Of a DNA stretch of 64,000 nucleotides, positions 21,460 to 43,358 are shown one piece after another. The notes under the pieces are model-generated. The model saw nothing but the letters and a program-made list of their open reading frames with translations. It did no database searches and was not told where the DNA came from. A program made the translations under genes and the position numbers. The stretch covers positions 61,595-125,594 of the forward strand of contig JAHEKJ010000001.1 in assembly GCA_024638385.1 (NCBI GenBank). Reading direction: 5' to 3'. Position 1 is the first letter of the stretch; every line of letters starts with the position of its first letter. This DNA is from Gammaproteobacteria bacterium (GTDB lineage: Bacteria; Pseudomonadota; Gammaproteobacteria; GCA-001735895).

Positions 21460-21550
21460 CCCCGGCCGGCCGCGCGTCAGGCCGTCGCACGCGGCGGTTT
21501 CGGGTTCACCCTCTCCACGCAAAAAATTCTGCGACGGCTTGCAGTTTTTA

Positions 21551-21576
21551 ATATTTGGGAATATAATCCCAAATAT
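21551..21576. promoter_or_regulatory. Palindrome, candidate operator copy 1
   Basis: ATATTTGGGA-ATATAA-TCCCAAATAT: perfect 10-bp arms, 6-bp spacer. Confidence 0.6.
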
Positions 21577-21637
21577 AGCAATCTAGTCCGCCGCAAATCC
21601 ACAATTTCGGTGGTTTTTTAAAGACTTTTCAAAGTTG

Positions 21638-21655
21638 TGGGAATAGAATCCCAAA
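21638..21655. promoter_or_regulatory. Candidate operator copy 2, abutting the ribosome binding site
   Basis: TGGGAATAGAATCCCAAA, 17/18 identical to 21556-21573, directly before GGAGAGACAATG. Confidence 0.55.
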
Positions 21656-21664
21656 GGAGAGACA

Positions 21665-23077
21665 ATGCCAGTATTCAGCAAGAGCAGAATTGCCACCGCC
21701 GTGATCCTTTTTAGCGCCATTGCCCTGACCGCCGGATGCGGCGGCTCGTCGGACGACGACGATTCGACCGAAACCTCGGTCGTCAGCCGCGGCGTGATTA
21801 CCGGGTTCGGCAGCGTCTACGTCAACGGCCGGCGCTACGCGACCGACGCCGCGAGTTTTCGCGTCGACGACACCGTCGGCAGTGAGACCGACCTGCGCGT
21901 CGGCATGATCGCGACGGTGCGCGGCTACTCGGATGACGGCGGGCGCTCGTGGCGCGCGCGGCGGGTCAGCTACGATAACGAACTCAAGGGCCCGGTCAGC
22001 AGCATCACGCCCGACCTGGCCGACCCGACGCGCAAGACCCTGATCGTGCTGGGGCAAAGGGTGCTAATCAATAGCAAGACCCGATTCGACGACGACCACG
22101 ACCTTACTTTCGACAGTCTCGCGGTCGGCGACGTGCTCGAGATAGACGGTTACCATGGCCCCGACGGATTGGTCGCGACCTACGTCGAGAAACAGGAAGA
22201 TGATTCCGAGTTCGAGATCAAGGGCCGCATTGAGAAACTCATCGGGGACCGGTTCGAAATTCGCGGCTTGCCGGTCGTGTTCGACTCGACGACGGATCTC
22301 GACGGCATCAAGGCGGTTGTCGAGGGGCTCTACGTCGAGGTCGAGGGCCGTCTCGATTCGCTCGGCACGACGCTGCTCGCGCAATCGATCGAGCGTGAAG
22401 ACGACGACTTCGACGATGCCGACGAACTCGAGATCGAGGGCATGATCATGGAATTCGATAGGTCGACGAAAATCTTCAAGATTGGCGAGCAGCGCGTCGA
22501 CGCCGCCACCGCCGAGCTGATGCCGGCGTCGCTGGAGCTTGCCGACGGCCTGATCGTAGAGGTCGAGGGTCATCTCGTCGGCGGTGTGCTGATCGCCGAG
22601 GAGGTCAAGCAGCGCGGCAAGAAGATCGAGATCGACGCGCCGCTGGCGGCGGTCGGCGACGATACCGTCACCTTCACCTTCAACGGGATCGATATCGTCG
22701 CCCGCGTCGGCGCCGGCACCGAGCTCGAGGACGATACCGGCAACCCGGTATTCTCGCTGGCGGATTTCGCGCCCGGCGACTTCGTCGAATTCGAGGCCTT
22801 CGCCGACGGTTCGGGCGTACTCAACGCGGTCGAAATCGAGCGCGAGGCGCCGGACGAGATTGCGATCGAGGCGCCGGTCGAGGCCTTAGATCGCGATAAT
22901 CGGGCGGTGACCCTGCTCGGTGTCGAATTCGACCTGTCGGCGGCCCGGTTCGAGAATGCCGCCGATGTCGAAATCTCGGCCGGGGCTTTTTTCGACGCGC
23001 TCGACATCGGCGTGTTCATCGAAATCGAGGATGCCGATCGCAACGGCGTTTTCGACAAGGCCGAACTCGAGGACTAA
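21665..23077 (+). CDS. DUF5666 domain lipoprotein
   Basis: 470 aa; lipobox LTAGC; SRGVITGFGSVYVNGRRY and repeated VEVEG...L.A..IE units; very acidic. Confidence 0.75.
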   Translation: MPVFSKSRIATAVILFSAIALTAGCGGSSDDDDSTETSVVSRGVITGFGSVYVNGRRYATDAASFRVDDTVGSETDLRVGMIATVRGYSDDGGRSWRARRVSYDNELKGPVSSITPDLADPTRKTLIVLGQRVLINSKTRFDDDHDLTFDSLAVGDVLEIDGYHGPDGLVATYVEKQEDDSEFEIKGRIEKLIGDRFEIRGLPVVFDSTTDLDGIKAVVEGLYVEVEGRLDSLGTTLLAQSIEREDDDFDDADELEIEGMIMEFDRSTKIFKIGEQRVDAATAELMPASLELADGLIVEVEGHLVGGVLIAEEVKQRGKKIEIDAPLAAVGDDTVTFTFNGIDIVARVGAGTELEDDTGNPVFSLADFAPGDFVEFEAFADGSGVLNAVEIEREAPDEIAIEAPVEALDRDNRAVTLLGVEFDLSAARFENAADVEISAGAFFDALDIGVFIEIEDADRNGVFDKAELED

Positions 23078-23129: not shown

Positions 23130-23930
23130 ATGCAGCAAACGCTTCGTCAAAGCCTGCGCAAGATACTGATGGCGCTGATCCGCACGCTGCTGCGTAACGG
23201 CATGTCCTACGGCGAGTTCGACCAGATCGCGCGCAAGTCCTTCGTCGACGTCGCGTTTCGCGACCTCAAGCCGGCGCGCAAGAAGCAGACCGTGTCCAAC
23301 GTCGCGATCCTGACCGGGCTCAACCGCAAGGAAGTCAAGAAACTGCACGAGCTTGATGCCGGTCAGGACGACGGCAAGAGCCAGCAATACAATCGGGCCG
23401 TGAGGGTCATCGGCGGCTGGCTAAACGATCCGCGGTTCCTGCGCAAGGACGGCAATCCGCGCGATCTCGATTACGAGGGCGAGGATTCCTTCGGCGAGCT
23501 GGTGCGCCGGTACAGCGGCGACATGCCGGTAGCGGCAATGCAGAAGGTGCTGGCCAGTTCGGGCAATATCAGTTTCATCGACGGCAACAAGGTTCGCCTG
23601 CTGAGCCATGCCTACCTGCCGGCCGACGACCCCGACGAAAAAATCGCGATCCTCGGCAACGATACCGGCCAGCTGATCGAGACCATCGAATTCAACCTGA
23701 CCGCGGCCGAGGAAGACCTGCGCTTTCAGCGCAAGGCGTCCAACCCGCAGATCGACCCCGACGCGGTCCCCGAAATCAAGCGGTTTTTACGGCGCAAGGG
23801 GCAGGCCTTCCTCGAAGAGGTCGACCTGTACCTGAGCCAGCACGAATCGCGCGACGACTCCGGCGTCGACGTCAGCGTCAGCGTCTTCTATCACGAGTCG
23901 GACGACACAGACCAGGAACCACAGGAATGA
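23130..23930 (+). CDS. DUF6502 family protein, putative HTH protein
   Basis: 266 aa; MQQTLRQSLRKILMALIRTLLRNGMSYGEFDQIARKSFVDVAFRDL...QTVSNVAILTGLNRKEVKKL; N-terminus looks winged-helix-like. Confidence 0.65.
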   Translation: MQQTLRQSLRKILMALIRTLLRNGMSYGEFDQIARKSFVDVAFRDLKPARKKQTVSNVAILTGLNRKEVKKLHELDAGQDDGKSQQYNRAVRVIGGWLNDPRFLRKDGNPRDLDYEGEDSFGELVRRYSGDMPVAAMQKVLASSGNISFIDGNKVRLLSHAYLPADDPDEKIAILGNDTGQLIETIEFNLTAAEEDLRFQRKASNPQIDPDAVPEIKRFLRRKGQAFLEEVDLYLSQHESRDDSGVDVSVSVFYHESDDTDQEPQE

Positions 23931-25440
23931 AACACCAGCGAAGGAATCCGATCAGGATATCGACCACCCTCGGCGCGGCGCTGCTCGCCAGCACGCTGCT
24001 GAGCTCCTGCGGCAGCGGCGGCAGCGCCGCGGTCGCGATCATCAACGCCGGCATCGGCGGCACCGGCATCGTCTTCGGTACGATCACCGGTTTCGGCAGC
24101 GTCTGGGTCAACGGACGGCGCTTCGAGATCGACGGCAGCGAAATCATCGTCGACGGCGAATTGAAGACTCAGGACGAACTCAAAATCGGCATGGTCGTCC
24201 GGCTCGACGTCGACACCGAAAACGGGATGTTCGGCGGCACCGCGGCCAGGGTCGTGTTTGACGACGCGATCCAGGGCCCGCTCAACGGTGCACCGATCCC
24301 GGTCGTCGGCTCGGGCGGCAGCGCCAAGCGGTTCAAGATCCTAGAGCAGTACGTCACTATCGACGCGAACCGGACGCTCTTTAACGGCACCGACTTCGGC
24401 TTCGCAACGATCGCCGATGACGATGTCGTCGAGGTCAGCGGCTTTCGCACCGCGCCTGACGAAATCGTCGCAACCTACGTCCGCAAGGTCGACCTCCCGC
24501 CGACGGCCTCAATCGAGGTCGAATTTCGCGGAACGATCCAGTCCTTGATGGTCGACAATTTCAAAATTAATGGCGTGACTGTCAATTTAGATACCGTGAT
24601 AGAAATCGACGTCGACGGCGGACAGCTCGAGGAGGGGATGTTGGTCGAGGTCGAGGGCTTCTTCGTGTCAGATACTGAGGTGGACGCGCTCAAGATCGAG
24701 GCGGAAGACGAAGACTTCGGCGAAGCCGTCGACGAGATCAGCCTGCAGGGTATCGTCTCGGGGTACAGCCCCACCGGCGCCGGGTTGAACGAACCATTCT
24801 TCATCAATGGCCAGCTGGTCGACGCGAGCGGGGCCGAGCGCGAACCGGAGAACATCGAAAGCCTGATGCAGAACGGCCTCGAAGTCGAGGTCGAGGGCGA
24901 AATCGTCAATGGAATCCTGATCGCCGAGGAACTCGAGTTGCGCGACGGCGATACCGAGGTGCGCGCGACCGTGTTCAGCAAGGACCCGAGCGGCAGCTTC
25001 GTCGTCGAGTTTCCCGTCGGCAAGCTCACGATCACCACCAACGGGATCACGGTGTTCGAGGACGAATCGGAAACGCCGATACCAGGCTACTCGTTTCAGG
25101 ACCTCGCCATCGGTCACTTCGTCGAGGTCGAGGGAGTCGAAGTCGAGGGAGTCGGGAGCAAAGATACTTTGAGTGCACAAGTCGTCAAGCGTCGCAAGCC
25201 GAACGATCTCAAGCTGCAGGGCGTGGTCGATGAGATCGATTCAACGGCTTTATCGATCACGATTCTCGACCTTACCTACCCGATGGATTCAGATGCGATA
25301 TACGAAGAGAACCCGACGATGACGGCTACCGAGTTTTTCGATCCGGGATACCTGATGGTCGGCGATATTGTCGAGCTGGAGGACAACCATTCCGAGAGTG
25401 ATCCCGCCGACGGCTTCGCCGACGCGGCTGAGACCGACGA

Positions 25441-25444
<4 letters not shown>
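23927..25444 (+). CDS. DUF5666 domain lipoprotein, paralog of 21665..23077
   Basis: 505 aa; lipobox LLSSC; GTITGFGSVWVNGRRF matches the first paralog; repeated VEVEG units. Confidence 0.75.
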
Positions 25445-43000: not shown

Positions 43001-43358
43001 CGAGTCGGCCGGATAATCGCTGACCCGCGCGACGGGTTGGAGGAAAGTCCGGGCTCCACAGGGCAGGGTGCCAGATAACGTCTGGGGGGCGCGAGCCCAC
43101 GGCCAGTGCAACAGAAAGTATACCGCCCGGCCTCGCTGTCGCGATGCCGTGGTAAGGGTGAAATGGTGCGGTAAGAGCGCACCGCGCCTGTGGCAACACA
43201 GGTGGCAAGGTAAACCCCACCCGGAGCAAGACCGAATAGGAAAACGATGGCGTGGCCCGCGCCGTTTTCGGGTTGGTTGCTCGAGATCGGGAGGCGACTC
43301 CCGGTCCAGATGAATGATTATCCTCGACAGAACCCGGCTTACAGGCCGACTCGCTTCA
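43001..43358 (+). ncRNA. rnpB: RNase P RNA (bacterial type A)
   Basis: GAGGAAAGTCCGGGCTCCACAGGGCAGGGTGCC, ACAGAAAGTATACCGCC, GGTAAGGGTGAAATGGTGCGGTAAGAGCGCACC, GGTAAACCCCACCCGGAGCAAGACCGAATAGG, CGAGTCGGCC/GGCCGACTCG closing helix. Confidence 0.97.

Follow-up and report, generated by a model that had tools for sequence, protein, structure and literature searches.

HetR (PDB 4izz, 4j00 and 3qod) is the heterocyst master regulator of filamentous cyanobacteria. Its fold comprises a DBD, a flap and a hood, and the hood is the point of control by the RGSGR/PatS peptide. The protein forms an intertwined dimer with an N-terminal HTH and contacts DNA through Arg62, Glu71 and Lys73, the last of which touches a base of the GGG (PMC4649674); its target is GGGnnnnnCCC, exemplified by the hetP site GAGGGGTCTAACCCCTC (PMC4192349). 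HetR activates targets in heterocyst differentiation, and it also has a binding site ahead of its own gene (PMC4192349, PMC4649674). A second described arrangement is that of the ‘-10-box’ autorepressors (local repressors of the TetR or MarR type), in which a palindromic operator lies on the promoter of the regulator’s own operon and the regulon is small.

The operon considered here lies within a stretch of 64,000 nucleotides of gammaproteobacterial DNA (‘the window’, by which the whole stretch is meant), and encodes a DUF6502 protein between two DUF5666 lipoproteins. As in the TetR- and MarR-type systems, a palindromic (here predicted) operator overlaps the operon’s own promoter and the predicted regulon is small; unlike them, the DUF6502 family had no previously described regulatory role in the searched literature, and in the genus of the window two promoter-operators are split by a terminator-like hairpin. 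With HetR the system shares a GGG..CCC dyad (found in HetR sites and in both dyads linked to DUF6502, which would be the protein that binds them) and a site upstream of the regulator’s own gene; it differs in that DUF6502 occurs outside cyanobacteria, in a role unrelated to heterocysts and without significant sequence similarity to HetR. From the genomic comparisons described below, DUF6502 is very probably a widespread and hitherto undescribed class of transcription regulator.

An operon built from two uncharacterized families

The DUF6502 protein of the window is a clear member of its family, scoring 165.6 bits against PF20112 where the curated cut-off is 27. The Pfam entries for DUF6502 (PF20112) and DUF5666 (PF18914) are both annotated as of unknown function; no mention of DUF6502 was found in the literature searched, and papers on a like dyad combined with a regulator of unknown function were likewise sought without result. 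The operon is neighboured by hisD and by the gene for a DegS-like protease, the latter on the other strand. Of the 41 genomes in the window’s family 31 encode DUF6502, as do 76 of 274 genomes sampled from its class. The family thereby gains a specific, testable predicted function and DNA target, together with a predicted regulon consisting of DUF6502 itself and of DUF5666 lipoproteins. Searches of phages found no DUF6502, plasmids carried only members of a distant clade (in Alphaproteobacteria), and a scan of the genome collection with the DUF5666 protein as query found no relatives. The features of the operon and its leader are collected in Table 1.

Table 1. Predicted features of the operon and its leader (positions within the window)
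Feature	Position	Strand	Basis
Putative -35 of P1, TTGCAG	21539..21544	+	17 bp from -10; TTG(A/C) recurs in g1, g2, g3 and other phyla
Operator O1 (putative)	21551..21576	.	perfect 10-bp-arm dyad ATATTTGGGA-ATATAA-TCCCAAATAT; kept before DUF6502 operons
-10 box of P1, TATAAT, within O1	21562..21567	+	sequence; spacer of 17 bp; arrangement kept in relatives
Terminator-like hairpin, CCGCCG/CGGTGG stem, CCACA loop, then T6	21588..21619	+	fold; conserved loop and T-run; arm covariation
Putative weak -35 of P2, AAGACT	21621..21626	+	17 bp from P2 -10
Operator O2 (putative)	21636..21655	.	TGTGGGAATAGAATCCCAAA; 82 bp from O1; twin arrangement in genus
-10-like TAGAAT of P2, within O2	21644..21649	+	sequence; most relatives have TATAAT
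RBS of first operon gene, GGAGAG	21656..21661	+	sequence
DUF5666 lipoprotein gene, first of operon	21665..23077	+	PF18914, E 4.5e-41
DUF6502 gene, proposed reader of O1/O2	23130..23930	+	PF20112, E 1.4e-48; HTH-like helices in model; operator-clade co-variation
Second DUF5666 lipoprotein gene	23927..25444	+	PF18914, E 6.9e-29; 4-bp overlap with DUF6502 end

Twin palindromes in the leader

A preliminary description of the window had reported a perfect palindrome with 10-bp arms around an ATATAA centre, and the recurrence of its core 82 bp downstream, at 17/18 identity (over 18 bp) and against the ribosome binding site; both observations were confirmed, at O1 and O2, respectively. The pattern TTTGGGA-N6-TCCCAAA has one exact copy in the window (21554-21573) and one with a single mismatch (21636-21655), the end of which directly adjoins AAAGGAG, the RBS of the first DUF5666 gene. 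When up to three mismatches were allowed, only one further match was found in the window, at an unrelated site, and 4 out of 100 shuffled versions of the window reached three such loose matches, so the pair taken alone is only moderately unusual. The shorter TGGGA-N6-TCCCA occurs exactly at four places in the whole genome: O1, O2, one site on contig C106 and one on C148, the last with a core that is unlike the others and contains GC. Because the window by itself does not rule out chance, relatives were examined, and the weight given to the pair derives from its conservation there rather than from its rarity in the window.

Conservation of the dyad upstream of DUF6502 operons

The DUF6502 loci of relatives were taken together with their upstream regions, and an exact GGGA-N6-TCCC dyad was found to head nearly every DUF6502 operon of the window’s family, irrespective of whether the first gene is DUF5666, DUF6502 or another; where a DegS gene interrupts the operon (loci L050, L052 and L053), the dyad stands at both parts. 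Two dyads separated by 72-82 bp are present at 12 loci within the genus, one of them that of the window, with the second adjoining the RBS when DUF5666 comes first; at many loci there is only one site.

Class-wide, an exact dyad lies within 200 bp upstream in 26 of 57 loci, compared with none for the reversed pattern and 0.15 for shuffles. A scan of the collection with a DUF6502 alignment supplied 79 loci, which include MAGs labelled Nitrospirota and Desulfobacterales as well as Halieaceae, Thiodiazotropha and Piscinibacter. Outside the closest group, 35 of 60 loci carry the exact dyad and many more are one change away from it; most of the Nitrospirota-labelled loci have it either exactly or as GGGAATATAATACC. 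About a third of the loci of the main DUF6502 clade have no recognisable dyad within 300 bp, and in some of these another operon gene lies ahead of DUF6502. Judged by these comparisons, which establish its conservation, GGGA-N6-TCCC stands upstream of DUF6502 operons beyond chance. The preliminary description had proposed a search for its motif at homologous loci, and dyads of the TTTGGGA-N6-TCCCAAA type were indeed found before DUF6502 operons in the genus, the family, the class and beyond.

A predicted promoter beneath the proposed operator

The alignments place the dyad on the -10 box of what appears to be a sigma70-type promoter (TTGAC, 16-18 bp, TATAAT), an overlap that is likewise established by comparison. 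Relatives of the window have TATAAT or TATATT inside the dyad at GGGA+5, preceded by TTGAC or TTGC located 17-19 nt upstream of GGGA (equivalent to a spacer of 16-18 bp), and the (A/T)A(A/C)GA(C/T) element of P2 is found 18-19 nt from GGGA in 13 of 15 aligned leaders. Across the genera, the class and the other phyla compared, most loci have a TTG(A/C) -35 spaced as sigma70 requires. Other families and phyla display TTGACA-N17-TATAAT, and in many of them the ATG of DUF6502 is located only 3-5 nt past the dyad, so that very short or leaderless DUF6502 messages are predicted in those lineages.

O1 and O2 are highly likely to be sites for DUF6502, a dimer of which, seated on GGGA-N6-TCCC, would cover the -10 and control both its own operon and DUF5666 genes in trans. 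Such a dimer would most likely repress, blocking RNA polymerase at the -10 boxes of P1 and P2 and of the unlinked DUF5666 promoters; its release in response to a signal would then induce the lipoproteins and the regulator together. The predicted specificity of DUF6502 for the dyad is well supported by comparison; the binding itself we infer.

The palindrome pair had been put forward as an autoregulatory site of DUF6502, acting through looping or through occlusion of the RBS. Autoregulation is much the best reading of a conserved dyad that tracks the DUF6502 clade and to which binding is predicted; neither of the two proposed modes was retained as a general mechanism. Looping is not favoured because the distance between O1 and O2 ranges from 72 to 82 bp, which spans one whole turn of the helix, and because loci with only one site are frequent. 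RBS occlusion is not favoured because the overlap with the -10 is the invariant feature, and many other lineages have no RBS-spaced leader. That DUF6502 might act on the dyad as an activator or a dual regulator is rather unlikely: its nearest structural match, HetR, activates targets in heterocyst differentiation and has a site ahead of the gene that encodes it (PMC4192349, PMC4649674), but in practically every locus the -10 lies under the dyad, and near-consensus -35 and -10 boxes are kept, as is typical of repression. Repression as the sign of regulation, an effect of the leader terminator and a sensed signal are what we infer for the system as a whole.

The hairpin between the two predicted promoters

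In this genus the leader is doubled, with the predicted P1 and O1 followed by a terminator-like hairpin and then by P2 and O2 at the RBS. Two stems had been suggested between the palindromes. ACTTT-TC-AAAGT is present (21624-21635) and is not conserved in the aligned leaders of relatives. CCAC..GTGG-TTTTTT proved to belong to a more extended terminator-like hairpin, which is conserved and forms no part of either operator. Among the leaders of the genus (the window and loci L035-L047) the sequence of the stem varies around a near-constant TCWCA loop, which is followed by a T-run and AAAGAC, with TTTTTTAAAGAC trailing. The native arms fold at -6.1 kcal/mol compared to -2.5 kcal/mol for swapped arms, and none of 2000 arm permutations was as stable (11 relatives). 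The hairpin has the stable stem with compensatory changes, and the T-run, expected of an intrinsic terminator or attenuator. Transcripts from P1 would mostly end there, before the gene, unless read through, and could give a small RNA roughly 50 nt long, while the message from P2 would begin beside the RBS; the hairpin may in this way add attenuation in this genus. A search of Rfam with the leader gave no match at the gathering threshold; the only Rfam match of the window is an ordinary bacterial RNase P RNA of class A (43001-43357).

Control at the level of RNA, in which the palindromes would be RNA elements (O2 folding into a stem-loop at the RBS, or the hairpin of the leader serving as an attenuator), draws on the position of O2 beside the RBS and on the conserved, covarying hairpin with its constant loop. 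It is nevertheless very improbable as an account of the palindromes: O1 is located upstream of the expected start of the P1 transcript, most lineages have the -10 within the dyad and an ATG within 3-5 nt (which leaves the dyad out of the RNA), and perfect dyads with no loop, such as GGGAATATATTCCC, are common.

A second probable operator class that follows the protein

The distant clade of DUF6502, which includes Alphaproteobacteria (L126, L137, L065, L272, L273 and others), is associated with a different dyad, GTGGGA-N5-TCCCAC. With labels that tolerate two mismatches within 300 bp, the N6 dyad was assigned to 44 of 80 main-clade loci versus 0 of 17 in the distant clade, and the N5 dyad to 12 of those 17 (0.35 in shuffles) versus 1 of 80. 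The notion that the distant genes are operator-less (N6 at 0/16) was rejected on account of the N5 dyad. Loci of Methylocystis and Azospirillum, chosen by protein match before motif testing, both proved to have a perfect N5 dyad, and of 20 further loci fetched once both motifs had been fixed, 16 carry one or the other, where 0.5 were expected.

In a tree of 107 DUF6502 proteins, a single branch (support 100/100) parts 33 rows from 74. The smaller side comprises 25 with N5, 1 with N6 and 7 with neither; the larger comprises 45 with N6, 1 with N5 and 28 with neither. Three genomes encode paralogs that each bear their own dyad class (L062/L065 in G035, L096/L134 in G049 and L278/L293 in G544), which indicates that the motif goes with the DUF6502 protein and not with the host. 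This clade-specificity, established by comparison, is the best evidence from sequence that DUF6502 itself is the reader of the dyad, and the N6 and N5 forms would offer a natural specificity switch for studies of protein-DNA recognition. The thought that the palindromes arose by chance in an AT-rich intergenic region, to which their merely moderate rarity in the window lends something, has a negligible probability: it is refuted by conservation that is class-wide, cross-phylum and clade-specific, and by the outcome for the loci fetched prospectively.

Possible structural likeness to HetR

Two DUF6502 proteins were modelled with AlphaFold2 (from 47 and 51 sequences, with pLDDT of 80 and 81 and pTM of 0.54 and 0.60), giving models of moderate confidence. 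In these the N-terminal part is all-helical, with an HTH-like pair (55-62/66-74) that holds the invariant R66-K67; next come another helix-helix-hairpin unit (121-157) and, at the C-terminus, a further helical part. A Foldseek search against the PDB placed HetR, in its DNA complexes, first for both models (E 2.4e-4 with a probability of 1.00, and E 1.5e-2 with 0.95), making it their best match among solved structures; the alignments run over the whole length, yet at a TM of only 0.32-0.38 (about 0.35), for monomer models.

The hetP site is 17 bp long, and its GGG and CCC are placed as in GTGGGA-N5-TCCCAC; in contrast, the gap between GGG and CCC spans 8 bp in the main DUF6502 clade and 7 bp in the distant one, where HetR requires 5. 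Comparison of sequences, with two HetR sequences only, gave hhalign E-values of 0.17 and 0.49 and an hmmsearch value of 0.04 for one sequence, which shuffles equalled; Pfam and NCBIfam were checked for similarity between HetR and DUF6502 with no match, a search of PDB sequences with the DUF6502 profile produced nothing credible, and no HetR was found on plasmids. Kinship with HetR is accordingly offered as a lead only. It is conceivable, at somewhat short of even chances, that DUF6502 is a HetR-related family of Proteobacteria, Nitrospirota and Desulfobacterota that shares the three-part fold and a similar dyad geometry, may respond to a ligand or peptide through its C-terminal domain, and governs envelope DUF5666 lipoproteins. 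This raises the possibility of HetR relatives outside cyanobacteria; if true, the HetR fold would not be an isolated one, and HetR itself would be the branch that a larger family has in cyanobacteria.

Sites beyond the operon

A strict promoter-operator pattern (TTGAC-N11..14-GGGA-W6-TCCC) was scanned in the 274 class genomes and found in 17, of which 16 are DUF6502-positive (Fisher p 4.7e-9); when only the family is considered, co-occurrence fails to discriminate (14/31 vs 3/10). DUF6502 operons aside, the genes behind the strict sites are mostly unlinked DUF5666 lipoprotein genes. The regulon as established by this comparison is predicted to reach those genes in trans, a part of it that the preliminary description had overlooked. 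Four MAGs (G008, G024, G025 and G225, which are 96%, 87%, 66% and 81% complete) have the promoter-operator and no detected DUF6502, perhaps through incompleteness. The persistence of the operator in them is what might recommend another, unlinked regulator as reader of the dyad and governor of the DUF6502/DUF5666 operons. That explanation is improbable, since the dyad, which occurs in several phyla, changes class with the DUF6502 clade, even among paralogs of one genome, and such a regulator would need to co-diverge with DUF6502.

Several further sites adjoin other genes. Sensor histidine kinase genes lie behind a promoter-operator in three members of the genus (L255 by the scan, L245 and L256 alike by sequence). 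The genome of the window also has a related dyad, GGGAAATAAATCCC, with a TTGC -35, ahead of the gene for a small Ser/Gly-rich exported protein (G000:C106:3161-3174; L003 1502-1515, and L235), the product of which reads RRRALSRLGLVATAAYVAPALMTLSQSARA and then Gly/Ser repeats; this gene is a candidate for a further member of the regulon. Dyads are also found before similar small genes in G003, G004, G009, G017 and G020. In a second genus (L249 and L251; G034 and G036), the DUF6502 operon can start with a lipoprotein that displays a weak cytochrome-c-like match (E 0.005).
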